16,759 nt of DNA from an uncultured Desulfobacterales bacterium (lineage in GTDB: Bacteria > Desulfobacterota > Desulfobacteria > Desulfobacterales > UBA11574): NCBI GenBank assembly GCA_937925895.1, contig CALANC010000382.1, positions 1-16,759 on the forward strand, read 5' to 3'. The position numbers were made by a program, and so were the translations under genes. The first letter of the stretch is position 1. Each line of letters opens with the position of its first letter. The notes beneath the pieces are model-generated. The model was not told where the DNA came from. It did no database searches and was given only the letters and a program-made list of their open reading frames with translations. Positions 160-16,424 of this stretch are shown here, piece after piece.

Positions 160-176
160 CTTTAAGAAAATGCCCT

Positions 177-181
177 GGAGG
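177..181 (+). promoter_or_regulatory. Ribosome binding site that fixes the start at 188
   Basis: GGAGG lies 6 nt upstream of the ATG at 188. An in-frame ATG at 170 lies upstream of this site and has no comparable site of its own. The protein therefore most likely begins MDKKMSV, just ahead of the receiver fold. Confidence 0.7.
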
Positions 182-187
182 AAGGCT

Positions 188-1543
188 ATGGACAAAAAAA
201 TGAGCGTTATGGTTGTGGATGACGAGGAAATTGTAAGGGAATCTTTTTTTCACTGGTTCCAAAAGTACGGCCATATGGTGGAAACCGCATCGTCGGGATT
301 TGAAGCTCTGGAGAAGCTGGAAAAGAATCCCTTTCAGGTGATGTTTGTGGACATCAAGATGCCGGGGATGGATGGTATAGAACTGCTGGAAAAAGTAAAG
401 CAGGAATATCCGGATACTATTGTGATTATTATCACCGCGTACGGGTCGATTGAGTCGGCCGTTAAGGCCATGCGTATCGGGGCCAGCGACTACCTGCTCA
501 AACCGTTCAAAACGGATCAACTCTCCTTGGTCATGGAAAGAATATCGCAGCAAGAAAAACTTGTATCCGAATACAAATATCTAAAGGGACGTTTGGAAAA
601 AATTACCCGTTTCGAAAACATTATCGGCCAATCCGCGGCCATTGAAAGAGTTTTCAGTATTATTCCGGAAGTTGCCCAGAGTAACAGTTCCATTTTACTG
701 GTGGGAGAAACCGGAACCGGCAAGGAGTTGGTCGCTAAAGCAATCCACGCCAAAAGCCACCGATGCCATCTTCCTTTTATTCCCATTAATTGCGGCTCGA
801 TTCCGGACAGCCTCCTGGAGAGCGAGCTTTTTGGCCATCAAAAAGGAGCTTTTACCGGCGCCACCCATGCTCGCAAAGGTTTCTTGGAAGTCGTTTCCGG
901 GGGAACTCTGTTTCTGGATGAAGTTGGTGAAATCAGCCCTAAAATGCAGGTCGATCTCCTGCGTGTGCTGGAAGAAAAAAAGATAACTAGTATCGGCAGT
1001 AGGGAGCCGGTTGACATCGATTTCCGACTCATCTCTGCAACCCGGCAGGACCTGGAGAGAGGAATTGCAGACGGCACATTCAGAGAAGACTTTTATTATC
1101 GCATAAACGTCATTAAAATCGAGATTCCTCCGCTAAGAGACAGAAAAGAAGACATTCCTATTCTCCTGGAGCACTTTATCGAAAAGTACAGTCATGAAAC
1201 CACCTCCCAAATTGATCGCGCCACACCCAAAGCCTTGGAATTCTTGAAACAATACGATTGGCCAGGAAATGTCAGAGAATTGGAGAATGCCGTTGAAAGG
1301 GCGGTGGTCCTCTCCAAATCCCGAACGCTGGGAGCGGAGGATTTTTCTTTCCTGCAGTCCCCAACCCCTGCGCTTTCAAGTCCTCTTTCTCTGCGTGATA
1401 TGGAAAAGAGATATATCCAACAGCTTCTGGAAGAAAACCAATGGAATGTTTCCAAAACAGCCAAGGTTTTGGAAATTAACCGCGTAACGCTGCACAAAAT
1501 GATAAATAGATATAAATTAGAAAGACCAGCAGAGACGAAATAA
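188..1543 (+). CDS. Sigma-54-dependent response regulator (NtrC/AtoC type: REC, AAA+, Fis-type HTH)
   Basis: This is a 451-residue bacterial enhancer-binding protein of usual length and domain order. The receiver domain spans about residues 5-120, with acidic pocket D11-D12, phosphoacceptor D55 in a DIKMPGMDG loop, T83 and K105. The AAA+ domain (about 144-375) has Walker A GETGTGKE (173-180), the sigma-54-contacting GAFTGA loop (220-225) and Walker B GGTLFLDE (238-245). A Fis-family helix-turn-helix lies at the C-terminus. By family knowledge, phosphorylation drives hexamer assembly and ATP-dependent opening of sigma-54 promoters. The partner is probably the kinase whose tail lies just upstream. 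A clear target in the same window is the -24/-12 promoter at 3609-3623; that link is inference. Its receiver is strikingly similar to the one embedded in the HdrA protein at 5492-8941. It is an activator, not a repressor, because GAFTGA is intact. Confidence 0.95.
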   Translation: MDKKMSVMVVDDEEIVRESFFHWFQKYGHMVETASSGFEALEKLEKNPFQVMFVDIKMPGMDGIELLEKVKQEYPDTIVIIITAYGSIESAVKAMRIGASDYLLKPFKTDQLSLVMERISQQEKLVSEYKYLKGRLEKITRFENIIGQSAAIERVFSIIPEVAQSNSSILLVGETGTGKELVAKAIHAKSHRCHLPFIPINCGSIPDSLLESELFGHQKGAFTGATHARKGFLEVVSGGTLFLDEVGEISPKMQVDLLRVLEEKKITSIGSREPVDIDFRLISATRQDLERGIADGTFREDFYYRINVIKIEIPPLRDRKEDIPILLEHFIEKYSHETTSQIDRATPKALEFLKQYDWPGNVRELENAVERAVVLSKSRTLGAEDFSFLQSPTPALSSPLSLRDMEKRYIQQLLEENQWNVSKTAKVLEINRVTLHKMINRYKLERPAETK

Positions 1544-1558
1544 TTCGGAGAAACTCAA

Positions 1559-1641: not shown

Positions 1642-1751
1642 AACCACATGCATACATTGAATATTCCGCGGATTAAACTTTGAGCCTGACACCGAGGTTG
1701 GGCAAAAGAGGACATTTTTCAAAGGTTTTTAAAGGGATAATTGTTGACTAC

Positions 1752-2300: not shown

Positions 2301-2310
2301 TATAGGCTAT

Positions 2311-3255
2311 TTACTTAATCTGTTCGGTTCTGAGAAAAGTTTTCGCCAGTTGATCCCAACCGAGTTCCGGGAATGTACCGAAAACATCACTGATGGGCTG
2401 GGCACCGGTGGCCGCCAACCGTTCGTACTCCGGGCCCATGAGATTCAACAGCCTCTGGGCTTCTTGCTCCATCCACTTCATACTTTCACTGTTATAAAAC
2501 AATCCTCTTAAATTTCTTTTGGGCATATCTGGCTCCAGAATGCAGAGCCAACCCTCATGATAAGGGTCCTCATGGAGGATCTCAGGATGCTCACGGGCTT
2601 TATGATTGACAGCCAAAACCGTGCCGGATACCGGGGAAAGGGAGGCAGCCTTGTGGCTGTCGCGACCGAAAGTCAAGCCGGCTTGGTTTTTTTTCAAAGT
2701 CGATCCCAGCGGCGGCAGCGCTAGATATTGAAGTGAGCCGAAGAGCTTGACGACAAAATCATCGAATCCGATCCGCACGCGTCCGCCGTGATCGAAACGG
2801 ACCCAAGAGTGTCCCAGATGATAATAATAGCCTTTAGCCATTTTATAACCCGAAGCCAGTGTATAGCTCGGCTGCTCGATGACTTGCGCAAGATCATATT
2901 CGTCCATCATCTGATCAAAGGAACAGTGATAGCATTCATAGTTCATCGGACAGATCTTGGGTGCATCAATACGGCCGGTCAGGGAATGCCTGCAGGGCCG
3001 TTCGGCACCCTGAAAGTGAGTTTTCAAATGCTCAACCCATCCGGGTTCTCGCGATTCGGTTGGAGCAGGTTCTCCGGAACCCATAGCTCGCTGCATCCCT
3101 AAATCGAATGGACAGTTGTAGCAGTCATACACATTGTCACACAGCCGGTAGTTGATAACCCCTGCTTTCATCCAAATGCATTCCTCCTCAACCACCTGGA
3201 ATCCGACAACGCGTTTCTTTTTCTGCGTCTTCTTGGTCTTTTCTTTTTTACTCAT
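2311..3255 (-). CDS. GcvH-like lipoyl-domain protein with two N-terminal cysteine modules
   Basis: This 314-residue protein has three parts. After a lysine-rich start it has two cysteine modules: C26, C39, C45, C48 (ending YDCYNCPFD) and C88, C102, C108, C111 (ending YECYHCSFD). Both look suited to bind a metal or FeS cluster. Residues about 143-270 match glycine cleavage H protein, including HLGHSWVRF, SPVSGTV and the PYHEGWLC turn. The lipoyl-acceptor lysine is kept as K202 in SHKAASLSPVSG. No glycine cleavage P or T genes are nearby, so it probably is not a standard H protein. Lipoate-binding GcvH-like proteins (LbpA) serve Hdr-like complexes in sulfur oxidisers, so a role as a thiol/dithiolane carrier for the adjacent Hdr system is a reasonable inference. 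A near-consensus ribosome site AAGGAGGTG (3261-3269) sits 5 nt before the ATG. It follows the 67-residue gene by 90 nt, probably under the same sigma-54 promoter. Confidence 0.8.
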   Translation of the reverse strand: MSKKEKTKKTQKKKRVVGFQVVEEECIWMKAGVINYRLCDNVYDCYNCPFDLGMQRAMGSGEPAPTESREPGWVEHLKTHFQGAERPCRHSLTGRIDAPKICPMNYECYHCSFDQMMDEYDLAQVIEQPSYTLASGYKMAKGYYYHLGHSWVRFDHGGRVRIGFDDFVVKLFGSLQYLALPPLGSTLKKNQAGLTFGRDSHKAASLSPVSGTVLAVNHKAREHPEILHEDPYHEGWLCILEPDMPKRNLRGLFYNSESMKWMEQEAQRLLNLMGPEYERLAATGAQPISDVFGTFPELGWDQLAKTFLRTEQIK

Positions 3256-3345
3256 TTAGACACCTCCTTACTATTGATGATTCCCAAGACAATTCAGGAT
3301 GAGTTTTTTTCTATCTTTATAAAATTGGTATGATAGTTGTAAGTT

Positions 3346-3549
3346 TTAGTTATAGTATCGGGGTGCAAGCTCATATTCGTCCATCATCTGGTCAAAGGCA
3401 CAGTGAAAACATTCATAGCTCAACGGGCAGATCTTGGGAGCATCAATACGTCCTGTCAGAACATGACGACAGAGCCGCTCGGCACCCTGAAAGTGAGTTT
3501 TAACATACTCAACCCAACCGGGCTCCTCGCGTTTTTCTATTTGAATCAT
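3346..3549 (-). CDS. Small four-cysteine protein, free copy of the cysteine module of the GcvH-like protein
   Basis: This is a 67-residue protein starting MIQIEKREEPGW. About 45 of 56 aligned residues are identical to residues 69-124 of the neighbouring 314-residue protein, including GRIDAPKICP and FDQMMDEY, and four cysteines are kept in a C-x13-C-x5-C-x2-C pattern. It stops right after the module and has no lipoyl domain. The DNA is also clearly related, so it is a tandem partial duplication. It looks like a functional gene, not debris: AGGAGG (3555-3560) lies 5 nt before its ATG, its key residues are intact, and the perfect sigma-54 promoter is 60 nt upstream. The longer open frame upstream of this ATG runs through the promoter and is not coding. 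Function is unknown; it may bind a metal or FeS cluster, or act as a partner or competitor of the larger protein. Confidence 0.75.
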   Translation of the reverse strand: MIQIEKREEPGWVEYVKTHFQGAERLCRHVLTGRIDAPKICPLSYECFHCAFDQMMDEYELAPRYYN

Positions 3550-3608
3550 TTTGGCCTCCTCTTGTTTCGTCTCACCAAAAAAATAGTCTTGTGTTGTCTT
3601 TTGTATTT

Positions 3609-3623
3609 GCAATGGGGGTGCCA
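3609..3623 (-). promoter_or_regulatory. Sigma-54 (-24/-12) promoter
   Basis: On the - strand the sequence reads TTTTGGCACCCCCATTGCAA. It contains TGGCAC, a 5-nt spacer and TTGC, an exact match to the TGGCAC-N5-TTGC core with the required GG to GC spacing. The expected transcript start is near 3597, about 48 nt before the ATG at 3549 and upstream of its ribosome site. It would drive the 67-residue gene and then the lipoyl-domain gene. The sigma-54 activator at 188-1543 is the obvious candidate regulator. Confidence 0.85.
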
Positions 3624-3682
3624 AAAGAAATATGACCGGGGAAAAAATTTCTATGCTGCTTAATTTATTAAATATTATTAAG

Positions 3683-3696
3683 TTGATTTCTATCAG
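3683..3696. promoter_or_regulatory. Possible FNR/CRP-family operator
   Basis: TTGAT-TTCT-ATCAG matches the FNR half-site dyad TTGAT-N4-ATCAA at 9 of 10 positions. It lies about 60 bp upstream of the -24 element of the leftward sigma-54 promoter and about 235 bp before the rightward kinase. A single short dyad in AT-rich DNA can arise by chance. Confidence 0.35.
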
Positions 3697-3810
3697 CATG
3701 CGGGAAAAGGTGATGTATATAAATGGTCGGCATGATTAAATTGGCTACACTTTGGAGGGAAATGGTGAGAAAAAGCCTGAATTCTGAATAATATCAGTCT
3801 GTTTTATAAC

Positions 3811-3842
3811 TGTAGCTTTTTATGGATCGGTTGTAGCTTTTT
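3811..3842. repeat. Two 11-bp direct repeats 21 bp apart
   Basis: TGTAGCTTTTT occurs at 3811-3821 and again at 3832-3842. The 21-bp period is two helical turns, so both copies face the same side of the DNA. They lie about 190-220 bp upstream of the -24 element at 3609-3623, a normal distance for activator sites of sigma-54 promoters, and about 90-120 bp upstream of the kinase start. They may be a binding site for either gene set. Confidence 0.5.
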
Positions 3843-3878
3843 TTTACACAATTAAAACAAAATCGTTGGACTCTCTTC

Positions 3879-3906
3879 TTGAGGTATTATATGAATATGT
3901 TATACA
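3879..3906 (+). promoter_or_regulatory. Possible sigma-70 promoter for the REC-PAS kinase
   Basis: TTGAGG (3879-3884), a 16-nt spacer and TATACA (3901-3906) resemble -35 and -10 boxes, four of six matches each. A transcript would start close to the ribosome site AAGGA (3919-3923). The match is weak and the DNA is AT-rich. Confidence 0.3.
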
Positions 3907-3930
3907 AATTTAATTCAAAAGGACCTGTTG

Positions 3931-5487
3931 ATGAACAAAATAAAGGAATGGAGCGTACTTTTTATAGACGATGACGAAGGAATTCGGAAAGTCATCTCCA
4001 TTGCCTTAGAGGATGCCGGATATAAAATGCTGACTGCAGCCGATGGGGAACAAGGAATCGAGTTGTGCAAGAAGCATTCTCCCCACATTATCATCACCGA
4101 TATTCGCATGCCCGGCATGGACGGAATTGAAGTTTTAAAATCCATCAAACAGACGGATCCGGATAAAGAAGTGATTGTGGTCACCGGCTATGGGGAAATC
4201 GATTACGCTATACAGGCACTTCAGCTGGACGCTTCGGATTTTATCACCAAACCGATAACCGACGCGGCTCTTTATGTTGCCCTCGAGCGCGCCAAGCAGC
4301 GCTACAATACCCGTAAAGAACTTGGAGATTACACCGCTTTGATAGAGGAAAGATGGATGAGTACGGCGGAAGAGCTCGCCAACCTTATTAATTCCCAAGA
4401 AAAACTCATAGAAAGTTCCATTGATGGAATCGCCGGATGTGATAAAGACGGGAAACTCATCGTTTTTAACACGAGCATGGAACAGATGGTAGGGTATAAG
4501 CGCAAGCGTGTAATTGGAAAAAAATTCCTGTCTGAATTCTTTTCCAAAGATAATTGGGAAACATTAGAGGAAAAGCTGTACAGCCCGGACTATGGTGGAA
4601 AGAATCAGCTGCTTTTATATGAAACGAATTTAATATCTAAAGCAGGAATAGAAATCCCTGTCCAGCTTTCAGCAACCTCACTTGACCGTGAAGATGAAGA
4701 AATCGGCGTTGTGGGATTCTTCCGGGATTTGAGAAAAATAAGAAGCCTGGAGCAAGAGTTCGCGGATCAGACCCGATTGTTGCACCAGGATAAAATGATA
4801 TCCTTGGGCAAACTCTCTGCTAGCGTTGTTCACGAAATTAATAATCCCCTTACCGGTGTTCTGAACTATATTCGTCTCATGATTAAAATCCTAAACCGTG
4901 ATTCCTTTTCGGCAGAACAAATACAAAAGTTCAATAGATATCTGGAGTTAATGGAAAGTGAGGTGAGTCACTGCTCCACCATCGTCTCCAGCCTGCTGGC
5001 ATTCTCCAGAAAATCCGAATTGGAGTTTGGGAACGTAAACCTAAATGATCTTTTGAAAAAATGTATGATGTTGAGCGACCACAAACTGACCCTGCAGAAC
5101 ATTCAAATCAAAACCGCTTTGAATTCTGAGATGCCACAAATAACAGGCGACTTTAACCAACTTCAGCAATGCATTCTCAATCTCATTTTCAACGCTGCCG
5201 ATGCCATGCCAGATGGAGGGCTTCTCACCATAGAAAGCGCTTTTAACCCTGAGAAAGAATTGATCCAGATAATGGTGGCGGATACCGGTAGCGGTATCAC
5301 TAAAAACGATCTTCCTAAAATTTTTGATCCTTTTTTTAGCACCAAAGAAGAGGGTCAAGGGCTGGGGCTCGGCCTTTCCGTGGCCTACGGTATTATTTCC
5401 CGACACAAAGGGGTTATTGAAGCGAAAAGTGAATCGGGCAAGTGGACTGTTTTAACTATTACCCTTCCTGTTAACCCTCAATCGTAA
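3931..5487 (+). CDS. Cytoplasmic hybrid sensor kinase: REC, PAS, HisKA, HATPase_c
   Basis: This is a 518-residue kinase with no membrane segment. Receiver domain: residues 8-120, with D13-D15 acidic pocket, phosphoacceptor D57 in DIRMPGMDG, T85 and K107. A helical linker leads to a PAS domain at about 155-275 (GIAGCDKDGKLIVFN). The H box has H301 in VVHEINNPLTG, followed by an ATPase domain with N, G1 (DTGSG), F (IFDPFF) and G2 (GLGLGLS) boxes. An N-terminal receiver suggests it takes phosphate from, or is gated by, another kinase. The PAS domain may sense a soluble cue such as redox state, but no cofactor residues can be assigned. The ATG at 3931 is chosen over a TTG at 3928 because AAGGA (3919-3923) lies 7 nt upstream. 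Its stop is 4 nt from the stop of the receiver-bearing HdrA gene on the other strand, which makes that protein a candidate phosphotransfer partner by proximity only. Confidence 0.93.
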   Translation: MNKIKEWSVLFIDDDEGIRKVISIALEDAGYKMLTAADGEQGIELCKKHSPHIIITDIRMPGMDGIEVLKSIKQTDPDKEVIVVTGYGEIDYAIQALQLDASDFITKPITDAALYVALERAKQRYNTRKELGDYTALIEERWMSTAEELANLINSQEKLIESSIDGIAGCDKDGKLIVFNTSMEQMVGYKRKRVIGKKFLSEFFSKDNWETLEEKLYSPDYGGKNQLLLYETNLISKAGIEIPVQLSATSLDREDEEIGVVGFFRDLRKIRSLEQEFADQTRLLHQDKMISLGKLSASVVHEINNPLTGVLNYIRLMIKILNRDSFSAEQIQKFNRYLELMESEVSHCSTIVSSLLAFSRKSELEFGNVNLNDLLKKCMMLSDHKLTLQNIQIKTALNSEMPQITGDFNQLQQCILNLIFNAADAMPDGGLLTIESAFNPEKELIQIMVADTGSGITKNDLPKIFDPFFSTKEEGQGLGLGLSVAYGIISRHKGVIEAKSESGKWTVLTITLPVNPQS

Positions 5488-5505
5488 GGAACTAACCCGT
5501 TCCTT
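5486..5505. terminator. Short hairpin over two convergent stop codons
   Basis: AAGGAAC (5486-5492), a 6-nt loop and GTTCCTT (5499-5505) form a perfect 7-bp stem. It overlaps the end of the kinase (stop 5485-5487) and the end of the double HdrA gene (stop 5492-5494 on the - strand). Being symmetric, it could act in both directions. There is no strong T-run on either side, so termination is only a possibility. Confidence 0.35.
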
Positions 5506-8500
5506 CCAATGCCGAGTCAATAACATCGAACATTTGTTGGTCGGAAAACCCTGCCAAAATTGAGGCGCTATTGGGGCATGTCGTGGCGCATGATCCACAG
5601 CCTTGACACATAGCAGAATTGACCATGACCCGTTCCTGATCCAGATCAAAGAAACGGGCGCCATAGGGACAGGTGTTGATACACCTTTCGCACAAACTGC
5701 AAAGGCTGTAGCGCACATCCGCCACCACCTTTCCTGTGGGCATCTGTTCGTGGGCAATAATTCTTAAGGCCCGCTGAGACGCAGCCTCGGCCGTCGCGAT
5801 TGATTCGGTAACGTTACGGGGAGAATGAGCCAGACCACAGGCAAAAACACCTTCTTTGAGCGAATCCACAGGCCTCCACTTAGACTCCGCCTCTGCAAAG
5901 AAACCGTCCTGATCCAATGTCGCACCAAAAGCCGTCGCCAGATCTACGGGCAAATTGGGGACAACACCTGTTGCCAGAACGACAAGGTCGGCATCGATCT
6001 CAATCTTTTTTCCCATAATCGGCTCGAAAAAGGTTACCTGAACAGATCCGTCAGCAGTCGACACGTCCGGTTTTTCAGTCGGGTCATATTGGACAAAAAC
6101 AACGCCGGTCTGCCGAGCTTGAGTGTAATAGGTCTCGGCAAATCCGTAGGCCATCATGTCCCGGTAAAGGATGTAAACTGCGATATCGGCATTTTGCTCT
6201 TTAAGGTAAAGTGCATTTTTTAACGCTGCTACACAGCATATGCGGCTGCAATAATTTCTTGGCTCCTCGCGGGAATCCACACATTGAATCATCACCACTG
6301 TTTTCAGGCGTCCCGGTTCTAAGGTGTCATCATCTATTTTTTTGTTCAGGTCTTTTTGGGTGATGACGGCCTCACTGGCGCCGAAGCTGTAGGAGGTGGT
6401 TGCGGCTTCTGTTCCTCCAGTGGCAAGAATGGTAACACCATGATCCAGGGTGAAGACGCCCTCCTCTTTACCCTCAACGGTGGTATTAAAGTGTCCCACA
6501 TAACCGAAGGAACTGAGCACCCGGCTTTTAACATGGGTTTGAATTAAAGGGTGCTTTTCCACTTTTTGCAGCGATTCTTCCAAAAGGGTATTGGTAGCGT
6601 TTCCTTCCAGGGTTCGCTTCAACCAGTTGAGGTTGCCACCCAGTATCTCTTCTTGCTCAACTAGATTGACTTTAAATCCGTGATCCGCAATGGCAAGCGC
6701 TGAGGTCATTCCGGCGATCCCGCCGCCCACCACCAGAGCTTCCTGTTTGATTTTGACTTTGGTCACGGGGGCCGGATCGGCCCATTTAACCTTGGCAAGA
6801 CCCATTTTAAAAACAGCAAACAGCTCATTGTTGGCAGCTGTTCGCTCTTCTTCTGACGGGATCTCGGAGCCGATTTTCGAATTGTAAGCGATGGGCTTTA
6901 TATCGACCACATCGATGAGGGCAGGGTCGAGTCCCAATCGTTGCCCCAGTTCCCTGATTTTTCTGGCATAGACATAGGGCAGGCAGGCTCCGATCAACAT
7001 CCTGTTCGGCCTCTGTTTTTCCGCCAGCTCAACTAGATTTTCCCAACCGATGGCAGTACAGGTCTGTTCAAGAAACAAAACCTGGTCCACTGCCGGATCC
7101 GCCTCGAGGCTTTGGACAAGCTGATCTTGATCGAAAAACTTGGAAATCTCATCTCCGCAGGTGCAAACAGCAACCATAACTCGGGGAGATTCACCCTGGG
7201 CTTCGGCAGGTGGAGGCTCGGCCGAGACTTCGGGAACCAGACCGCCGCCGGATTTGTGAATCACCCGGGATGCAGATAAGGCGGCGGCAGACGCCTGGAT
7301 GACCGACTCATTGATGTCTTTGAGGCCGGAGAAGGATCCCCCCAGCAATATTCCTTCTTTCCCTGTGACCGTTGATGAAAAGGGTTGGGTTTCTCCGAAA
7401 CCCCATGAGTTGCAGGGAATTTCGAGATTTTCCAACATGGCGGTGGCACCTGTTGCGGGTCTCTGACCGACGGAGAGAACAACCAGGTCGAATATCTCTT
7501 CTTTCTTGGTACCCGTGATATCAACATGAGAGGCAATGAGGTCACCGCTGGATTCATCCTGGAGCAGGGAATGAATAATTCCCCTTTTAAATCGAATACC
7601 ATGTTTGCTTTCCGCCTGGTCGCGGTAGCGTTGAAAGGACTTGCCGAAGGTGCGCATATCCATATAAAAAATGGTCGCATCCAGCTCTCCGCCGGATTTT
7701 TCTTTGCCCACAAGGGCTTCCTTGATGGCGTGCATACAGCAAATAGAAGAGCAGAAATCTGCTTCTAATTGAATGTTTCGTGACCCGACACACTGAAGCC
7801 AGGCAACCTTCTTAATGGGTTTGCCGTCATGAGGCCTTACCAGGCGGCCCTGATTCGGACCGGTGCCGCTCAAGATCCTTTCGAATCCCAGACTTGTTAC
7901 TACATTCGGGAAAAAACCGTAGCCATACGTGTTGGGCCCGCTGGCCGGATCGAAATAGTCGGTTCCGCCGCAAAGAACCAGAGCGCCCACTTCCATCGGA
8001 GGCTGTTGATCGGCTTCAAGGTCGTGGTATATTTGCAGAACCTTGGAAACCAGGGGATCGATTTCAAAAGGTTTGAGGAGATAATCCAAGGCCCCTATCT
8101 TCATGGCTTCCACAGCGGTCTCAACCGTGGCGTAAGCGGTCATCATGACAACGCAAAGATCGGGATAGTTCTGCTTTGCCTTTTGCAGGACCTCTACACC
8201 GTCCATGCCCGGCATTTTGATATCCGTGAGCATCAGGTGATAAGGTTGTTTTGATAACAGTTCCAGAGCATCCGGACCGGACTCAGCCGTATCGACGGCA
8301 AAACCTTCGTCCTCCAGCCAGTCTCTTATGGAATCACGAACAATCAACTCATCATCCACTACCATAATGCGGAAATCCTTGGCCACCCTTTTTGAAACCT
8401 TGATGGCTTGGGTGGGGCATACAGATTCACATTCTCCGCACCGGGTACAAGCGGTCATATCGATCACGTACGTGTTGGGAATATTGTGAGGAACCGGCAA

Positions 8501-8941
8501 GTAGATGGCCTTCCGCTTGGAAAAGCCGACGTTGAATTCATCCGGCACCTCCACCGGACAAACCTTTACACATTCGCCGCACCCGTTGCATAGTGCCGAA
8601 TCCACAAAGCTCGGTTTCTGCCGCAACGACACCTGGAAATTGCCCGGTTCGCCCTCCACGGAAGCTAGTTCTGTGGATAGACGGATATCAATGTTCTCGT
8701 GGAAGAGGCCTTTCCGCAGGCAATATTGGGATGATGTATCTCGATCCACTAGGGGGAGCATCTTACACATGCCACATCGATCGGTGGGAAACTGATAATC
8801 CAGTTGACTCAGAATCCCGCCTAGTTTTGGTGCGCGGTCGATGAGGGTGACACCATAACCAAATTCCGCCAGATCCAGAGCCGCCCGGATACCGCTTATA
8901 CCGGCACCTACCACCATTGCTTTTCCGACTTTTTTCTTCAT
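5492..8941 (-). CDS. Double HdrA iron-sulfur flavoprotein with an embedded response-regulator receiver domain
   Basis: This 1149-residue protein contains two HdrA units. Unit 1 lacks the usual N-terminal domain and opens with the FAD fold (VVGAGISG, about 10-17), then an inserted ferredoxin with CNGCGECVKVCP (from C118) and CTRCGECESVCP (from C165). Residues about 191-307 are a receiver domain: D196-D197, phosphoacceptor D240 in DIKMPGMDG, T268 and K290. The flavoprotein fold then resumes with DYFDP, CVGSR and a CSSICCMHA block. Unit 2 starts near 590 with the CTCG N-terminal domain, has VVGGGIAG near 737-744, lacks the inserted ferredoxin, and ends in a 2[4Fe-4S] ferredoxin (CSLCERCINTCP and CQGCGSCATTCP). 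HdrA proteins bifurcate electrons at FAD in soluble complexes. The reading frame is continuous through the receiver, so this is a real fusion. ATG 8941 is preferred over TTG 8962, which has no ribosome site. It is the last gene of the operon. Phosphorylation control is inferred. Confidence 0.92.
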   Translation of the reverse strand: MKKKVGKAMVVGAGISGIRAALDLAEFGYGVTLIDRAPKLGGILSQLDYQFPTDRCGMCKMLPLVDRDTSSQYCLRKGLFHENIDIRLSTELASVEGEPGNFQVSLRQKPSFVDSALCNGCGECVKVCPVEVPDEFNVGFSKRKAIYLPVPHNIPNTYVIDMTACTRCGECESVCPTQAIKVSKRVAKDFRIMVVDDELIVRDSIRDWLEDEGFAVDTAESGPDALELLSKQPYHLMLTDIKMPGMDGVEVLQKAKQNYPDLCVVMMTAYATVETAVEAMKIGALDYLLKPFEIDPLVSKVLQIYHDLEADQQPPMEVGALVLCGGTDYFDPASGPNTYGYGFFPNVVTSLGFERILSGTGPNQGRLVRPHDGKPIKKVAWLQCVGSRNIQLEADFCSSICCMHAIKEALVGKEKSGGELDATIFYMDMRTFGKSFQRYRDQAESKHGIRFKRGIIHSLLQDESSGDLIASHVDITGTKKEEIFDLVVLSVGQRPATGATAMLENLEIPCNSWGFGETQPFSSTVTGKEGILLGGSFSGLKDINESVIQASAAALSASRVIHKSGGGLVPEVSAEPPPAEAQGESPRVMVAVCTCGDEISKFFDQDQLVQSLEADPAVDQVLFLEQTCTAIGWENLVELAEKQRPNRMLIGACLPYVYARKIRELGQRLGLDPALIDVVDIKPIAYNSKIGSEIPSEEERTAANNELFAVFKMGLAKVKWADPAPVTKVKIKQEALVVGGGIAGMTSALAIADHGFKVNLVEQEEILGGNLNWLKRTLEGNATNTLLEESLQKVEKHPLIQTHVKSRVLSSFGYVGHFNTTVEGKEEGVFTLDHGVTILATGGTEAATTSYSFGASEAVITQKDLNKKIDDDTLEPGRLKTVVMIQCVDSREEPRNYCSRICCVAALKNALYLKEQNADIAVYILYRDMMAYGFAETYYTQARQTGVVFVQYDPTEKPDVSTADGSVQVTFFEPIMGKKIEIDADLVVLATGVVPNLPVDLATAFGATLDQDGFFAEAESKWRPVDSLKEGVFACGLAHSPRNVTESIATAEAASQRALRIIAHEQMPTGKVVADVRYSLCSLCERCINTCPYGARFFDLDQERVMVNSAMCQGCGSCATTCPNSASILAGFSDQQMFDVIDSALEGTG

Positions 8942-9013
8942 AACAAAACCATCCTCATCCAAAAGAACATGGGAAAAATTGTCCTTTATAGTAAATTATC
9001 GATTTCATCACCT

Positions 9014-10162
9014 TCATGCATGTCCGATTCCGACGATGTCAGCGAGTTCATCCTCACGAAATACCGACAGCGGAGGTTCTTCTTCAATGCTCCTGCCGGG
9101 CTGATACTCGAATGCCTCTTGGGTGCGGGATGAAACGGCTCTAAACAGTTCCATCACCTGGATATCATTGGGGCAAGCATTGGAACACTGTCCACAGCCA
9201 ATACAGGCCGTACTCATATGGGCCATTCGGGTCAGGTGATAAAAAACCGTATCTGTAGGCATTTTGATGACACCCTTTTTGTTTGCCCAGCGTAAGTACT
9301 GGATAGGCTCATGGTTAAAAACGTCCGTAACAAAGACGCATTCCTTGCAGTAGCAGACGGGACAGGCCACTCTGCAGTTATAGCAGTTCACACAATTGGC
9401 AAGATAGGTGGTTAGCTTTTCCAGGCTGTTGGTGGCCGCAGCGATCTCTTGATACATGTTATCTCGATACGTTGTTTTCTCCGCGATTATCGCATTGACG
9501 GCCTTTTGGCGCCCTGCCGGCTCTTGGGAGCCGGGAAGATTCAAACGTGTGAGTAATTCCTCTCCTTGAGGGGTCTGGGTTTGAACGAGCAGTTGATTGG
9601 CTGTATCGACTCCGAAAAGGCCGATTCCCAGATCGGCGGCACCAGGAATACAGTGTTCACAGGCCTTACAGGTTGGAGAAAGATCGACTTCTTTCATGGC
9701 AGCGCCTTTGCCGGAAAGAACGTTTTGATAAAATCGGGTGGTCGATTCTGTCACGTTATCGCCGACAAATTTGAAATAATCTTTGTTTTGGTAAGCCCCC
9801 AGGCAATCGATCCCCACTAACAGCACGTTTTCCATCCTTCCCTGCTTGAGTTTTACCAGCTCGATGAATGCACGTATCTCGCAAGGGCGCAGTACCGCCG
9901 CCACTTTTCCGCCCGCCGGTTTCCGTGTGAGACGGGAAGCAATTTTCGCTGCATTCATGGGAAAAGCAGGTGCTAGAGGATCGGCACCCTCCAGTTGTTT
10001 GGGATCGGTTACCAATGCCGGCATGACCATATTCTTCATGGGAAGATGTTGTGGGACCAAAATGGCGCTGATATCTTCCACCCGTAAGACGGCCTTAAAA
10101 AATCCCTGCAGAGATGCCAAAAGATTTCCTTCTGTAACGTTTATTTTTGCTGTTTTTGCCAT
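9014..10162 (-). CDS. FrhB/FdhB-like iron-sulfur protein with C-terminal 2[4Fe-4S] ferredoxin
   Basis: This is a 382-residue protein. Its N-terminal half matches the coenzyme F420 hydrogenase/dehydrogenase beta-subunit family: LRPCEIRAFIELVKL around C94, VGIDCLGAY around C120, and a CKACEHC cluster (C165, C168, C171) before ADLGIGLFG. The C-terminal part has CVNCYNCRVACP (C257, C260, C263, C267), the extra cysteines C270, C272 and C275, and CIGCGQCSNACP (C320-C330). In the family such subunits pass electrons between a flavin and F420 or another donor; here the donor is unknown and F420 use is not shown. It lies 22 nt after mvhD and 72 nt before the double HdrA gene, so it is probably a subunit of the same complex. 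GGAGA lies about 7 nt before its ATG. No hydrogenase or formate dehydrogenase catalytic subunit is in the window. Confidence 0.85.
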   Translation of the reverse strand: MAKTAKINVTEGNLLASLQGFFKAVLRVEDISAILVPQHLPMKNMVMPALVTDPKQLEGADPLAPAFPMNAAKIASRLTRKPAGGKVAAVLRPCEIRAFIELVKLKQGRMENVLLVGIDCLGAYQNKDYFKFVGDNVTESTTRFYQNVLSGKGAAMKEVDLSPTCKACEHCIPGAADLGIGLFGVDTANQLLVQTQTPQGEELLTRLNLPGSQEPAGRQKAVNAIIAEKTTYRDNMYQEIAAATNSLEKLTTYLANCVNCYNCRVACPVCYCKECVFVTDVFNHEPIQYLRWANKKGVIKMPTDTVFYHLTRMAHMSTACIGCGQCSNACPNDIQVMELFRAVSSRTQEAFEYQPGRSIEEEPPLSVFREDELADIVGIGHA

Positions 10163-10184
10163 CAGTCTTCTCCGTGTTTGTCTA

Positions 10185-10607
10185 TTAAATCACCATGGCT
10201 GTTTTGGCCTCGCTAGGGCCCATGCCTTTTAGTTGTGCCACCATATCGGTCATGATCTCGGCAAACATGATGCCGTCACTGGCACCTATCCAGGTTAACC
10301 TTAGCCGCTCGTCTTCAATGCCGAACTGGGGAAGGATTTCTTTAAGAAGCTTGATGCGCCGGCGCGCCTTATAATTGCCGTTGATGTAATGGCAATCTCC
10401 GGGGTTGCATCCGCTGACAAGGACCGCATCAGTCCCTTCAAGAAACGCCTTGATTACATATTTGGGGTCAACCATACCGGTGCACATGACCCGAATCAAC
10501 CTGACGTTGGGAGGATATCCCAGCCTGGCGGTTCCGGCTAGATCCGCGGCGGTGTAAGTACACCAGTTACACACAAATGCGATAATCGTCGGTTCAAAAT
10601 CTCCCAT
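10185..10607 (-). CDS. mvhD: MvhD/FlpD-type [2Fe-2S] electron-transfer protein
   Basis: This 140-residue protein is of the usual MvhD length. The conserved cysteines are C13 and C16 in VCNWCTY, C42 in VMCTGMVDP, and C67 and C72 in SGCNPGDCHY, followed by GNY. By family knowledge it carries a [2Fe-2S] cluster and joins the electron-donating enzyme to HdrA. C13 is an ordinary cysteine, so this is not one of the selenoprotein-type versions. It sits between the NADPH-type HdrA and the FrhB-like gene, which fits a docking role between donor and HdrA. GGAGG lies a few bases before the ATG. A 110-nt gap separates it from the gene before it, the largest gap in the operon. Confidence 0.93.
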   Translation of the reverse strand: MGDFEPTIIAFVCNWCTYTAADLAGTARLGYPPNVRLIRVMCTGMVDPKYVIKAFLEGTDAVLVSGCNPGDCHYINGNYKARRRIKLLKEILPQFGIEDERLRLTWIGASDGIMFAEIMTDMVAQLKGMGPSEAKTAMVI

Positions 10608-10717
10608 GGTCTCCCTCCATAAAAAAATTGTTTACAATGTTATTAACCGCAGCTTCTCTTAATTACGGTAAAAAAAGTTAAATGTTCCTTCCATAACTTA
10701 TAACGTTAGGCTCCTTA
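10608..10717 (-). other. 110-nt intra-operon gap with a small dyad before mvhD
   Basis: This is the longest non-coding stretch inside the - strand operon and is AT-rich. The dyad ATTGT-TT-ACAAT (10627-10638) is followed on the - strand by a run of T residues, so it could act as a weak attenuator or a small operator. The stem is short and AT-rich, and no clear promoter was found. Confidence 0.3.
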
Positions 10718-13700
10718 CTATATCCCCACCGCATGTAGTGTATCCAAAACCCCTTGAAGTTCTGCGAACACTTGCTTTTCATTAAAATGCCTTACCTGGG
10801 CGGCGCCACTCGGACAAAACCCTGAGCAACTTCCACACCCTTTGCAGAGCGCCTCGTTGACGACCGACACCTGGCGGCGCTCATCAAATTCGATGGCTGA
10901 ATAGGCACACAAATTAATGCAGGTTTGACAACCGGCACAAATATCCGGATCAATCCAAGAAATGGCGGAAGGAATCTCGACATATCCCCGGGTTGCCAGG
11001 GAAAGCGCTTTGGAAGACGCACCGGAGGCCTGCGCCACCGTATCCGGAATATCTTTGGGCCCCTGGCAAGCACCGGCGAGAAAAACTCCGCTGGATGCTG
11101 TAGAAACCGGGGCCAGCTTGGGATGTTCTTCCTGAAAGAATCCGTCAGCGCCGACATTGATGCCGAATTTTCGGGCGACATCTGCTGCATTCGATCGCGC
11201 CTCCATGGCTGTACACAGGATCGCCATCTCCACCGGAACCTCGACCAGAGTTCCGGAAAGCGTATCTTCGGCTTTAACCATCAGCATCCCGTTTTCTTCG
11301 GTTATCTGCGAAGCTTTACCTCGGATCATGCGGACGCCTTCGGACTGCACCCGTTTGAAGAACTCCTCGTAGCCTTTACCAAAACAACGCATGTCGATGT
11401 AAAAATTATAAACCTGGGTGTCGTGTCCACATTTTTCCTTGAGAAGATGACCATACTTCAGCGCGTACATGCAGCAGGTGCGGGAGCAATATTCGTGGTA
11501 GTTTTGATCCCGGCTGCCGATGCAGTGGAGTATGGCGACGCTCTTGGGTGGTTCGGTAAAGGTTAAGCGATCGTTCGGATCCCTTTTGAGGAGCTTGCCG
11601 CTGGTTGGGCCCGTGGCATTGGACAAACGTTCAAATTCAAGATTGGTAAAAACATTGGCATATGTGCCGTATCCGTATTGTTTCATCGGAGTGGGATCAA
11701 GGGGATCATACCCGGTTGCAATGATGATCGATCCAACATCAATAGTTTCTTTTTTGTCTTCCATGTCGTGGTCGATGGCCTCTGGTTTACAAACACTCTC
11801 ACAAAGTTTACACTGACAGCATTTACCGCAGTTAATACATTTTTCAGCCTCGCGAATTGCTGACATCTCATCCAATCCCAGATCCACTTCCTTAAAAGAA
11901 TTTTCCCTGGCTTTAACATCGAGAACCTGGGGCTCAGCACGCTCAACTATAGCCGCATCTTCGGGAACAGGTAAATACTCCTTTTCTAATAGAAGTGTAT
12001 CCGTTTCAAGTTCATCTTCATATTTTTCCATCTCTTTATTGAGATATCTTTCAATAGCCTTAACAACCTTATGTCCTGCTGCAACCGCCTCAATGACCGT
12101 CGCGGGACCGGTTACTGCATCGCCGGCAGCAAATATATCGATTTCAGATGTCTGCAGGGTCCGATGATCAACCTTGAATGTACCCCAGGCCGTAAGGTCG
12201 ATAGGGTTTTCGCTCACAATAGTTCCCGTATCAGCCCGCTGACCGATCGCAGGGATGACCATTTCACATTCAACCACAAATTCGCTGCCTTCAACCGGAA
12301 CCGGTCTTCTTCTCCCACTTTCGTCGGCCGGCCCCAGCTCGTTTTTGATACATTCGATTCCCACGACCCTGCCATTTTCTTGAACCACCTTAAAGGGAGA
12401 AGCAAGGGTCATCAACTCAATGCCTTCGGCTTTGGCACCCTCAATCTCTTCCTTATATGCCGGCATTTCGTACTCTGTTCTTCTGTAAATAACGGTAACC
12501 TTTTCGGCACCTGAGCGTATGGCGGCCCGGGCGGCATCCATGGCAACATTGCCGCCACCGATAACCACCACTCTTGATTCGGCCTCTTTTGTTCCTTCCA
12601 GGTTCACTTGGCGCAAAAAAGGAATTGCATCCACGACGCCGGCGACATCTTCGTTCTCGATATTCATTTTTATGGGAAGGTGAGCGCCGATTCCCAAGAA
12701 TATGGCATCAAATCCCTGCTCTTTGAGGCCGGTCAGGGTAAAATCTATTCCAAGGGTCATACCGGTTTTGAGCTCAATTCCGGTGGAAAGGATGTGATCA
12801 ATCTCTTGGTCGAGTATTTCCGGCGGCAGCCGGTAGTCGGGAATACCGGTTCTGAGCATACCCCCCGGTTTTTCTAAGGCTTCAAATATCGTCACTTTGA
12901 ATCCCTTCAATCTCAAGTAATAGGCTACGGTAAGACCGGCAGGACCGGAACCTATAACGGCTATCTTCTCTTCCCTCTGCTCAACTTCAGGCAATGGAAC
13001 GTCTTCAAGTTTGGCATTATCCGCAGCAAACCGTTTTAATTCCCTGATGGAGATTGGGGCATCAATCAAAGATCTCCGGCAGTCGTTTTCGCATGGATGG
13101 GGGCAAACCCTTCCCAGCACTCCGGGCAATGGCAGGCGCTCCATTATAACATTTAAAGCCTGCTGATAATTCCCGACTCTCACCAGCTGCACATATGCGT
13201 GCACGTTGGTTCCTGCCGGACAGGAAGTTGTGCAGGGGGCCGTTGACAGCTTATCGATGGTGTAAGTTATGGGAACCGCTTGGGGAAACGGCCTGTAAAT
13301 GGCTTTGCGCATCCTGGTGTTCACATCCCATTCATTGGGGAATTCAACGGGGCAGACCTGTTCACATTCACCGCACCCAGTACAATTATTTTTAACGTAG
13401 CGGGCGTTTTTATGGACGTTTACCTTGAAATTGCCGACAAAACCGCTGACCTCCTCTACCTCACTGTAAGTGAGCAGATTGATATTTGCATCCTGTCCGA
13501 CGGAGACCATCTTGGGCGTACCGATACAGGCGGCACAATCCAGGGTAGGGAATGTTTTATCGAATTGAAGCATATGGCCGCCGACGGTGGGCTGTTTTTC
13601 TACCAGATGTACTTGGTGACCGGCACTGCTGATGTCCAGAGACGCCTGCATGCCTGCAATACCACCCCCTACGACGAGGACATCGGGATGGACACTAACT

Positions 13701-14110
13701 TCTCGGGTCTCGAGGCTCTGATGATAATTGACCCGGTTGATGGCTCCGGCCACAAGTGTTTTGGCTTTGCGCGTGGCCTCATCATCATCTTCGGTGACCC
13801 AGCTAACATGTTCTCGAACGCATGCCATCTGGAAATAGTAAGGATTGAGCCCGGCACGCTGGCAAGCGGCTTGGAATGTTTTTTCGTGCATTCGCGGCGA
13901 GCAGGCTGCCACCACCACCCGGGTGAGGTTATGGTTTTTGATATCGTTTTCAATAAGCTCCTGGCCCGGGTCGGAGCACATAAACAAGTAATCACGGGAA
14001 ACCGCCACGCCCGGCAAGGCCGCCGCAAATTCGGCGACATCTTTCACCCGAACGCGCCCGGCAATATTGACACCACAGTGACAGTTATAGAATCCGATTC
14101 GCTCAGACAT
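10718..14110 (-). CDS. HdrA with inserted GltD/NfnL-like NADPH flavoprotein module
   Basis: This 1130-residue protein has an HdrA N-terminal domain (FYNCHCG, C10, C12), an FAD fold (VVGGGIAG), the HdrA cluster motif TLDCAACIGTPKM, and a first ferredoxin motif CTGCGECEQVCP. After YTIDK an extra domain of about 415 residues begins: a GltD-type FeS start (C293, C297, then RVCPHPCENDC, C336-C344), FAD motif GSGPAG (387-392), NADP-binding GGGNVAMD (518-525) and an RR pair (R543-R544) typical of NADPH-binding GltD and NfnL. HdrA sequence resumes at CINCGKCCQCKLC (C758), then GYDPLDP, CIGSR and CSRTCCMYA, and ends in a 2[4Fe-4S] ferredoxin. It probably lets the Hdr complex exchange electrons with NAD(P)H. 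ATG 14110 has AGGAGG 6 nt upstream and overlaps the preceding gene by 8 nt; a TTG at 14128 is less likely. Confidence 0.92.
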   Translation of the reverse strand: MSERIGFYNCHCGVNIAGRVRVKDVAEFAAALPGVAVSRDYLFMCSDPGQELIENDIKNHNLTRVVVAACSPRMHEKTFQAACQRAGLNPYYFQMACVREHVSWVTEDDDEATRKAKTLVAGAINRVNYHQSLETREVSVHPDVLVVGGGIAGMQASLDISSAGHQVHLVEKQPTVGGHMLQFDKTFPTLDCAACIGTPKMVSVGQDANINLLTYSEVEEVSGFVGNFKVNVHKNARYVKNNCTGCGECEQVCPVEFPNEWDVNTRMRKAIYRPFPQAVPITYTIDKLSTAPCTTSCPAGTNVHAYVQLVRVGNYQQALNVIMERLPLPGVLGRVCPHPCENDCRRSLIDAPISIRELKRFAADNAKLEDVPLPEVEQREEKIAVIGSGPAGLTVAYYLRLKGFKVTIFEALEKPGGMLRTGIPDYRLPPEILDQEIDHILSTGIELKTGMTLGIDFTLTGLKEQGFDAIFLGIGAHLPIKMNIENEDVAGVVDAIPFLRQVNLEGTKEAESRVVVIGGGNVAMDAARAAIRSGAEKVTVIYRRTEYEMPAYKEEIEGAKAEGIELMTLASPFKVVQENGRVVGIECIKNELGPADESGRRRPVPVEGSEFVVECEMVIPAIGQRADTGTIVSENPIDLTAWGTFKVDHRTLQTSEIDIFAAGDAVTGPATVIEAVAAGHKVVKAIERYLNKEMEKYEDELETDTLLLEKEYLPVPEDAAIVERAEPQVLDVKARENSFKEVDLGLDEMSAIREAEKCINCGKCCQCKLCESVCKPEAIDHDMEDKKETIDVGSIIIATGYDPLDPTPMKQYGYGTYANVFTNLEFERLSNATGPTSGKLLKRDPNDRLTFTEPPKSVAILHCIGSRDQNYHEYCSRTCCMYALKYGHLLKEKCGHDTQVYNFYIDMRCFGKGYEEFFKRVQSEGVRMIRGKASQITEENGMLMVKAEDTLSGTLVEVPVEMAILCTAMEARSNAADVARKFGINVGADGFFQEEHPKLAPVSTASSGVFLAGACQGPKDIPDTVAQASGASSKALSLATRGYVEIPSAISWIDPDICAGCQTCINLCAYSAIEFDERRQVSVVNEALCKGCGSCSGFCPSGAAQVRHFNEKQVFAELQGVLDTLHAVGI

Positions 14111-16424
14111 GACATTCCTCCTGGTCAAAACTCCGATTGAAACTTTCGGTTTTATCTTCTTGATTCGTTTGGCCCGGCATCTCTACGGACTGCAGCAGCA
14201 GTTCGGCCAGATCCCGGACTTCAATTTGATCGGCAACACCCAGCTGATTGACGGCATCATTCAGCATGCGAATACAGTATGGACAAGCTGTGGCAATCAC
14301 ATCCGCTCCGGTTTTCAAGGCCTCACGGATGCGCAGCACATCGAGGCGCTGATCGGGCGGGGCGCTGTTCCAGGCACCGCCGCCGCCGCCACCGCAGCAA
14401 AGACTTCTTTCTTTATGACTCGGCATCTCCACCAGCGTTAATCCCGGTATTCGTTGCAAAATCCGCCTGGGCGCATCGTAAATGCCGTTGTGCCGTCCCA
14501 GATAGCAAGGATCGTGATAGGTGACAATGCAATCGACTTCCAGCACCGGCTTGAGACGTCCATCGGCAACGAGTCGATCGAGAAGTTCGGTATAATGCTC
14601 ACTACCCACAGCCCCATGCAATTCTTTATAGTTTTTCTTGAAAGCGTTCAGGCAGTGTGGCGAATTGGTCAGTATTTTCTGTACGCCGGTATCTTTAAAC
14701 AGATCCGTGTTTTGCCGGGCAAGATCGGAGAATATCTCTATGGCACCGATCTTCTGGACCTGCTCCCCGCAACAACTCTCCTTCGTACCTAATGTGCCAA
14801 ATGAGATGTCGGCTTGGTTTAACAGCCGGGGCAGGGCCCGACCGGCCATTTGGCTGCCCTGGGAGGAGCTGGTATCATAGGCTGTGGTGCAACAGGTGAA
14901 CAGACAGTACTCGCTTTCTTGGGTAAAAGTTGGTATTTCTATATCTCCGGCCCATTCCAGGCGATTCTTCCGAAGCCCGCTCCAGGGGTTGCCGTTTTCT
15001 TTAAGACTGCCAAGCGGTGCCTCCAATTGTTTGGGGATCCTTCTCGAATCAATGTTCTGTCCCCGCACCGATTTAACCAAATCGATGATGTCTATGCCTG
15101 ATGGGCAGTATTCACCACATTGGTTGCAGGTGACACAGCTCCAGACAGCCTGATCGACGGATTGCTCGGTGCACGAGTCCAAGGAAAGATGGCGCAGGAT
15201 CTGGCGCGGGTTATAGGATGACACCTGATTCCAGGGGCACATTGCCGTGCAGGTTCCACATTGCAGGCAAGTCATAAACGTCTCTCCGATCTCAGCCTTA
15301 ATAACCTCCAAGTCAATATGGGAATCTTTGGTTGCCTTTTCCTTTACGGTGGTCAAATAGATCGCCAGCGGCCGGTAGAAAAGATGTCCTAATTTTCCGA
15401 ATGGAATCATTATGCACAGCATGCCCACACAGACCGCCAGGTGAATGACGTACATACCGTAGGTTGCCAAGGGCCACTCGGCAAGACGGAAAAAATGAAT
15501 GAATATTCCGGTAAACGCCATGGAAAAGAGAAGGACCAAAAAAAACCAGTCCGTAAAGTCTGAATATCTATGAAGCTTCTCTTCTTTCTTGTAGCGGCTG
15601 ATGAGCATGTCGGCTGAAATAATCATTAAAGCAACCGTGGCATAGTATCCAAAAATGCGGGTGGGGTGCCACATGGGATGGACAATGTCGGTCTGGAAGG
15701 CGTCGAGAAAGCCGATCACCAATACCTCCATGGTCACATAGCCTGAAAACAACAAGAAATGTCGCCACCATCGGCCTCTTTGTCCGCTGCCGCATTTGCG
15801 CCAGCGTTTCTGGGTGAAATAATGCAAGATGAATGTTTTTGCTTCCGTGAGGTAGGTTAGAAGCGGGATCTTGGTATCACGCATAATACTTCGGTACATG
15901 CGGAATCCGTTGGACAACAATAACGCCCCCAGGGTGGTAAGCATAATTTTGTCACCCAATTTTATCCAAGCCACAGGGGCAAATGTATTTAGCGCCACGC
16001 GGTCGGTGACGATGGGGCCGTGGAAAACCATAAAAAGGGTAATTATGCTAAGAGCGATAAAAGCAAAAGCGCCGACTTCCCAGGCCGGTGAGGAATAGAA
16101 CCGGCGGGCCAGCCCGGTCCAGTCATACTGGGTAGTCAGCCAGCGACGGGTGGCCATCATCGTCTCGGCAGGTTCAGCACCTCGGGGACAGTCGGTATTG
16201 CAATCGCCGCAATAATAGCAAAGCCATGGTTCAGGCGACTCAAGCAGCTTGTGTTCAAGTCCGAGTTGAAGATAACGATATACCCGGCGAGGAAATGTGT
16301 TTGTGCCGCTGGACAGGGGGCATGCGGCACTACAGTTACCACACTGCATGCAAACCTCCATGTCTCTGGCTCCAAGCTTCTCTATCTCTTTATACAAATC
16401 TTGCCTGATACGATTTTTTTTCAA
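14103..16424 (-). CDS. Membrane HdrC-QmoC-HdrC-HdrB/D-type fusion, probable quinone-linked electron carrier
   Basis: This is a 773-residue fusion. It starts with an HdrC-like 2[4Fe-4S] domain (CMQCGNCSAACP from C25; CYYCGDCNTDCP from C69). About six membrane helices follow (near 116-138, 153-178, 222-245, 257-277, 290-312, 321-343) with histidines suited to heme b, as in QmoC and NarI. A second ferredoxin domain comes next (CLQCGTCTAMCP from C386; CVTCNQCGEYCP from C430), then two CCG domains as in HdrB/HdrD (C507, C511-C512, C551-C552, C591; and C640, C676-C677, C714, C717). Where the first CCG domain usually ends CPHC, it has S588 before PHC. The likely role is electron exchange between the cytoplasmic HdrA proteins and menaquinone; this is inference. 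TTG 16424 is the start: GGAGA (16431-16435) is 6 nt upstream and the codon overlaps the preceding stop as TTGA. Confidence 0.9.
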   Translation of the reverse strand: MKKNRIRQDLYKEIEKLGARDMEVCMQCGNCSAACPLSSGTNTFPRRVYRYLQLGLEHKLLESPEPWLCYYCGDCNTDCPRGAEPAETMMATRRWLTTQYDWTGLARRFYSSPAWEVGAFAFIALSIITLFMVFHGPIVTDRVALNTFAPVAWIKLGDKIMLTTLGALLLSNGFRMYRSIMRDTKIPLLTYLTEAKTFILHYFTQKRWRKCGSGQRGRWWRHFLLFSGYVTMEVLVIGFLDAFQTDIVHPMWHPTRIFGYYATVALMIISADMLISRYKKEEKLHRYSDFTDWFFLVLLFSMAFTGIFIHFFRLAEWPLATYGMYVIHLAVCVGMLCIMIPFGKLGHLFYRPLAIYLTTVKEKATKDSHIDLEVIKAEIGETFMTCLQCGTCTAMCPWNQVSSYNPRQILRHLSLDSCTEQSVDQAVWSCVTCNQCGEYCPSGIDIIDLVKSVRGQNIDSRRIPKQLEAPLGSLKENGNPWSGLRKNRLEWAGDIEIPTFTQESEYCLFTCCTTAYDTSSSQGSQMAGRALPRLLNQADISFGTLGTKESCCGEQVQKIGAIEIFSDLARQNTDLFKDTGVQKILTNSPHCLNAFKKNYKELHGAVGSEHYTELLDRLVADGRLKPVLEVDCIVTYHDPCYLGRHNGIYDAPRRILQRIPGLTLVEMPSHKERSLCCGGGGGGAWNSAPPDQRLDVLRIREALKTGADVIATACPYCIRMLNDAVNQLGVADQIEVRDLAELLLQSVEMPGQTNQEDKTESFNRSFDQEECHV
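14117..14122 (-). promoter_or_regulatory. Ribosome binding site fixing the HdrA-GltD start
   Basis: AGGAGG on the - strand lies 6 nt before ATG 14110, inside the end of the preceding gene. The start and the preceding TGA share ATGTCTGA, an 8-nt overlap that implies translational coupling. Confidence 0.75.

Follow-up and report, generated by a model that had tools for sequence, protein, structure and literature searches.

The window analysed here is a stretch of 16,759 nucleotides from an uncultured Desulfobacterales bacterium (assembly GCA_937925895.1, contig CALANC010000382.1, positions 1 to 16,759). On its minus strand it encodes a fused double HdrA, a heterodisulfide reductase (Hdr) protein of 1149 amino acids (5492..8941), which carries an inserted receiver domain and is called HdrA-REC below. 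Our comparison of homologous proteins and loci favours phospho-control of the Hdr complex, because the phosphorylation site is conserved and kinases are associated with the gene. We give a probability of about 0.65 to the reading in which the receiver acts as a functional phospho-acceptor, through which a nearby histidine kinase adjusts Hdr electron flow post-translationally. Judged from sequence, the receivers of the Desulfobacterales type (group A, below) are very likely working phospho-acceptors, and control of the Hdr complex by the receiver is likely.

Flavin-based electron bifurcation is mostly seen as governed by redox potentials and substrate supply. If the reading above is true, a kinase would directly control an energy-conserving electron split through a receiver in the bifurcating subunit. 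The same kind of switch mostly serves gene control in bacteria; here it is built into the core of an enzyme found in many sulfate-reducing bacteria, and a considerable fraction of one order's genomes has kept it intact. A natural branch with pseudo-receivers provides a ready comparison, and the question can be tested with cultured strains.

Architecture of the double HdrA

As the preliminary description of this DNA had proposed, a receiver with every phosphorylation residue lies inside HdrA, between the inserted ferredoxin and the remainder of the FAD fold. It spans residues 191-302 (8036..8371; all features of the gene are on the minus strand), has the receiver fold and matches Pfam PF00072 with 108 bits against a cut-off of 30.2 (E = 3.8e-31). 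The five residues of the site (DD, D, T/S and K) are all present, namely D196 (8354-8356), D197 (8351-8353), D240 (8222-8224), T268 (8138-8140) and K290 (8072-8074).

The first HdrA core opens with part a of the FAD fold (residues 5-112, 8606..8929), which includes C56, C59 and C74 and holds the counterpart of the Cys197 region, the Cys197 equivalent being assigned from alignment and not from structure. This is followed by the inserted 2x[4Fe-4S] ferredoxin (residues 113-181, 8399..8605; Cys 118, 121, 124, 128, 165, 168, 171 and 175). The insertion point of the receiver is clean: it lies behind the second cluster motif of this ferredoxin, with about 15 residues between the last cysteine and the receiver start, and a link of three residues joins alpha5 to the strand by which the chain returns to the first core (FAD-fold part b, residues 316-565, 7247..7996; C384/C397/C401/C402). 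The TrxR-like FAD fold with an inserted 2x[4Fe-4S] ferredoxin, which marks an HdrA, is present, and in the predicted structure (a model built from 86 sequences) the HdrA fold is undisturbed by the receiver. The second half comprises the HdrA N-terminal domain (residues 584-720, 6782..7192; C593, C595, C628, C653), a second HdrA core (residues 730-1064, 5750..6754) in which Pfam found no inserted ferredoxin, and a C-terminal 2x[4Fe-4S] ferredoxin (residues 1065-1149, 5495..5749). The protein stays below the curated NCBIfam HdrA/HdrA2 cut-off (676 bits compared to 1100 for HdrA2) and is thus classed as a double protein of HdrA type and not as an HdrA2 equivalog.

With the HdrA of HdrABC-MvhAGD and related complexes (PDB 5odc, 7bkb-e, 8rvu/8rwn) the protein shares the TrxR-like FAD fold, the inserted and C-terminal ferredoxins and the N-terminal domain. 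MvhD and HdrBC-type genes adjoin in both cases, with an HdrF-type fusion replacing separate HdrC and HdrB in the window, and electron bifurcation by the window's Hdr complex is presumed from this homology. Unlike that HdrA, the window protein has two cores per chain and a receiver behind the inserted ferredoxin. Its Cys197-type ligand (C56/C59 region) lies in the first half and its N-terminal domain (584-720) in the second. In the part of their paper covered here, Chadwick and colleagues describe HdrA pairs joined in one chain, with the N-terminal domain retained in one half and Cys197 in the other, and such a chain may be its own heterodimer (PMC9012536). ANME HdrA 3/4 and Moorella MetFV-HdrABC have the same two-HdrA chain with complementary Cys197 and N-terminal domain, in the opposite order to the window protein, where the Cys197-type half precedes the one bearing the N-terminal domain. 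The terms “receiver” and “response regulator” are absent from the text of PMC9012536.

Enzyme-output response regulators also combine a receiver and an enzyme in one chain, even an enzyme of the TrxR kind as in the window: the P2CS table, in the portion of PMC2716373 covered, marks thioredoxin-disulfide reductase as “Probable”. These regulators usually consist of an N-terminal receiver followed by the output, whereas in HdrA-REC the receiver interrupts the chain of an Fe-S/FAD electron-transfer enzyme. No published description of a receiver in HdrA was found in our literature search, which left subscription papers mostly outside its scope; the words sought are absent from PMC6085437, and a receiver in HdrA was not found in the covered portions of the main text of PMC10553843, PMC5109826, PMC7376266 and PMC3333781. 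Within this literature the earlier statement that no characterised case was known held, and the architecture is known as an automatic annotation. Homologues are named “response regulator” or “heterodisulfide reductase subunit A” in the databases, and one Pseudodesulfovibrio homologue (P0241) is auto-named “response regulator receiver modulated heterodisulfide reductase subunit A”, so the annotated homologues suspected at the outset do exist. P0241 has the architecture of the window protein with a pseudo-receiver, reading DRGAK at the five sites.

Intact receivers, pseudo-receivers and neighbouring kinases

The fusion proved to be widespread when the breadth of its conservation was checked as had been suggested: 112 of the 291 genomes in the order to which the window belongs carry it (72 of the 173 high-quality ones; 62 of 138 genera), as do 23 of 120 Desulfovibrionales genomes. 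An even sample of the phylum contained it in 15 of 395 genomes, the window's own included. Among named records the closest is from Candidatus Desulfatibia vada (81%). Cultured carriers include Desulfosarcina alkanivorans (L074), Desulfospira joergensenii (L065) and Desulfonema magnum (P0074), and the window's own genome also encodes HdrA paralogues without a receiver.

Two states of the domain were found. Group A comprises Desulfobacterales and five phylum-sample genomes of other orders, and group B comprises Desulfovibrionales; the groups were assigned from the names of homologues and fetched records. In group A the five-residue set was complete in 119 of 120 homologues (the other is truncated; P0002, the window's own protein, was left out), in 40/40 loci chosen from an order-wide search, and in the window and 80 pattern-found loci, a biased sample as one of its two search patterns (MTAYATVE) falls within the receiver. 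These sets overlap, 14 of the 40 loci being identical to loci among the 80. Because of the pattern bias we repeated the count on matches found without MTAYATVE and pooled the distinct segments, 220 of 221 of which were complete, the remaining one being truncated. In contrast, no group B sequence had the full set (0/120 proteins, 0/20 loci, 0/135 distinct segments), and the Desulfovibrionales keep the inserted domain at the same place as a pseudo-receiver. In the phylum sample 12 of 15 were complete, own genome included; the other three are of the Desulfovibrionales type. Loss of the key residues in most homologues, which had been named as grounds for giving up phospho-control, is therefore the rule within Desulfovibrionales and was not seen among the sampled segments from outside them.

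The pattern of conservation is consistent with this division. Of all domains of the protein, the receiver shows the highest conservation in group A (mean pairwise identity 0.66 compared to 0.31-0.63 in the others) and the lowest in group B (0.46 compared to 0.56-0.78). Across 41 group A rows, 26 of the 112 positions of the receiver never vary. Were all positions alike, which they are not, the five residues of the site would all land among these with a probability of 4.9e-4. Among 240 proteins, conservation in groups A and B was 0.99 and 0.47 for alpha4, 0.82 and 0.35 for alpha1, and 0.68 and 0.71 for alpha5, the best-kept element of group B. Group A thus retains alpha1, the usual docking place of kinases, together with the acid pocket and alpha4, and all three are weakened in group B. 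We read group B as having probably lost the kinase and switch functions and retained a packing surface.

In a backbone tree built without the receiver, all sampled carriers of both groups formed one clade (60/60, support 1.0), apart from 47 paralogues that all come from group A genomes. The clade has one extra member, a fragmentary group A gene, and one gene with an internal TGA (L136) was left out. Because all 60 fall together there was probably one insertion, and the simplest history of these sequences is that one of the two branches later lost the phosphorylation site. A receiver tree likewise placed the HdrA receivers of both groups in a single split (61/61, support 0.96), which also takes in three Usp-REC-Usp receivers. 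Recent copying from the neighbouring NtrC gene is not supported, as the HdrA receivers form their own split; the domain may have an older origin in the NtrC class, which is the next nearest receiver class.

In the window the candidate kinase is HK519 (3928..5487, plus strand; REC-PAS-HisKA-HATPase), which stands tail to tail with the HdrA gene. To place it in context we labelled genes with purpose-built hidden Markov models (HMMs; E <= 1e-5) at three kinds of loci: 40 intact loci, chosen by us from the 112 carrier genomes, mostly on long contigs and some with neighbourhoods already known; pseudo-receiver loci from 20 of 24 places; and, as controls without a receiver, 40 HdrA/HdrL paralogue loci, which lie in 30 of those 40 carrier genomes and were picked from the listed rows before their neighbours were known. 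L136 has no focal gene in the gene-order set and its shorter piece was counted in the kinase tally. A kinase on either strand lay within 8 kb downstream in 33/37 intact, 2/19 pseudo-receiver and 11/38 paralogue loci, and a co-directional one in 27/37, 1/19 and 6/38, respectively. Anywhere in the fetched stretch the counts were 36/40, 10/20 and 18/40, and the group B kinases mostly adjoin a divergent NtrC gene. Mere abundance of kinases as a cause of the adjacency was checked on the paralogue loci, which had a nearby kinase less often (11/38 compared to 33/37).

The usual gene order in group A is HdrL, MvhD, FrhB, HdrA-REC, HdrC, HdrB, often followed by a kinase of about 770 amino acids (HAMP-PAS-HisKA-HATPase) and a hybrid kinase of about 390 (REC-HATPase; both by Pfam at one locus). 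HdrC and HdrB come after HdrA-REC in 36 of 39 intact loci. The window departs from this order, with its HdrF-type fusion upstream and HK519 convergent on the HdrA gene.

Proposed phospho-control and its alternatives

In the mechanism we propose, D240 would be phosphorylated by HK519 or, elsewhere, by the ~770-residue kinase found after hdrB, and T268 and K290 would couple this to the alpha4-beta5-alpha5 face, as is general behaviour of receivers. The switch could then gate the low-potential branch at the inserted ferredoxin by setting whether ferredoxin or a partner subunit docks or is released. It is possible, as first suggested, that phosphorylation changes the distance or angle between the Fe-S relay and the FAD. 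We think a gate at this ferredoxin, presumably the low-potential exit, likelier than a stretching of the relay, since it better fits the points of attachment (alpha5 runs into a core strand and the receiver starts near the ferredoxin).

Direct phospho-control of bifurcation, as originally put forward, stands in part. The retained site and the nearby kinases are best explained by direct phospho-control of the enzyme complex; on the other hand, the loss of the site in group B implies that the fusion as such needs no phosphorylation. It could be that the receiver is mainly structural, its alpha5 face packing against the core of HdrA or against a partner subunit, with phosphorylation minor or absent, which we regard as rather unlikely. 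The Desulfovibrionales domain, kept in place with alpha5 as its best-preserved element, and the undisturbed HdrA fold of the model are what this would predict; however, it leaves unexplained why group A retains D196, D197, D240, T268 and K290 along with alpha1 and alpha4, and why kinases accompany the gene.

Other receivers near Hdr operons bear on the remaining alternatives. When the open reading frames (ORFs) at the fetched loci are compared, the HdrA receiver has its closest counterparts in Usp-REC-Usp and NtrC proteins. A tandem-Usp gene follows hdrB in 20/20 group B loci, without a receiver (Pfam on three). Near group A such genes occur in 3/40 and 3/80 loci (L125, L127, L158; L015, L061, L070) from four distinct genomes, and in every product the two Usp domains flank a receiver that shares 64-74% identity with that of HdrA. 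Three additional ORFs with a single Usp domain near group A loci lack a receiver. The window's NtrC-type sigma-54 activator (170..1543, plus strand) has a receiver 56% identical to that of HdrA (50-58% for NtrC receivers at other loci), and an orthologue was found in only 2/40 and 13/80 group A loci. A stand-alone single-domain receiver directly follows mvhD in 14 of 40 paralogue loci (L169, L174-L179, L184, L186, L189, L192, L197, L200, L201), and among the paralogue loci co-directional kinases were seen only at those of this kind (6/14 compared to 0/24 assessable). Together with the Usp-REC-Usp proteins, these mvhD-linked receivers suggest that a receiver tied to the Hdr operon, fused or separate, is a recurrent theme. 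At the Desulfovibrionales pseudo-receiver loci (L104-L123), 11 of 21 NtrC-type activators have a non-canonical receiver, so control there may not run via phosphorylation either.

It could be speculated, though we hold it as doubtful, that one shared kinase phosphorylates the HdrA, Usp-REC-Usp and NtrC receivers, such that a single signal sets both enzyme and genes and opens or closes the low-potential ferredoxin branch without protein synthesis. The Desulfovibrionales would then have dropped this layer, keeping a dead HdrA receiver and a receiver-free tandem-Usp protein and leaving control to the divergent NtrC-type activator that adjoins the operon. An improbable variant reverses the arrow: HdrA would report redox state, its receiver competing for or draining the phosphate of a kinase shared with NtrC and the Usp-receiver protein, so that the complex tunes transcription. 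The close likeness of these receivers is expected for a shared kinase; however, it fits enzyme control via such a kinase equally well, and nothing indicates that redox state reaches the receiver. That the intact site is a slowly decaying, functionless relic is already disfavoured and very improbable: decay did occur in one branch, but the insertion is older than the split of the two groups, the receiver is nevertheless the best-conserved domain of group A, and carriers span nearly half of the sampled genera of the order.

Several points weigh against control of the Hdr complex by a nearby kinase. The fusion persists without its site in Desulfovibrionales, which indicates that the domain also has a phosphorylation-independent role. 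Kinases are common in all three kinds of stretch; 4 of the 37 assessable intact loci have none within 8 kb downstream, several have two or more, and the hybrid kinases' own receivers are possible targets. Orthologues of HK519 were counted (20/40 intact, 0/20 pseudo-receiver and 1/40 control loci) at a cut-off of at least 45% identity that favours close relatives, and the kinase HMM was seeded from group A kinases. Fisher p values of about 1e-6 to 1e-9 assume independent loci and overstate independence, since intact versus pseudo-receiver is one evolutionary contrast. Paralogues from Desulfovibrionales could still break the single HdrA-REC clade. Finally, a tandem-Usp gene is missing from the fetched stretch at 37 of 40 group A loci, and the group A evidence on these proteins comes from four genomes.

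Remaining genes of the window and its genome

Upstream of HdrA-REC, an FrhB-like/Fer4 subunit (9014..10162) and an MvhD/FlpD subunit (10185..10607) follow the gene order of other loci; these and the next three genes are on the minus strand. Next is a protein of HdrL type (10718..14128), an HdrA with a GltD-type NAD(P)H module within the inserted-ferredoxin region. The HdrL of Desulfobacterium autotrophicum, is described in the covered part of PMC2702500 as an Hdr/glutamate synthase fusion. The insert of HdrL is an NAD(P)H module and that of HdrA-REC a receiver, and in these neighbouring genes the same part of HdrA accepts different modules. A fusion of QmoC-like membrane, HdrC and CCG parts (HdrF type, 14103..16424) probably stands in for HdrC and HdrB. 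A partial stand-alone receiver lies at the contig edge (16421..16702; 28.4 bits, slightly below the Pfam cut-off of 30.2), and a receiver gene precedes HdrL, directly or one gene apart, in 21 of 39 intact loci.

At the other end of the window, the NtrC-type activator adjoins an M54 peptidase gene (together 170-2300, plus strand). Next comes a GcvH-like protein (2311-3255, minus strand) whose long N-terminal part is rich in cysteine, and a short ORF (3346-3699, minus strand) repeats part of the N-terminal region of this adjacent protein. NtrC, M54 and GcvH-like genes are clustered in several Desulfobacterales loci.

On contig C236 of the window's own genome (L003/L007, L002/L008), HdrA-type genes each contain one internal TGA, which perhaps encodes selenocysteine. 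Selenocysteine is reported for hdrA1, hdrA2, hdrL1 and hdrL3 of D. autotrophicum in the covered part of PMC2702500.

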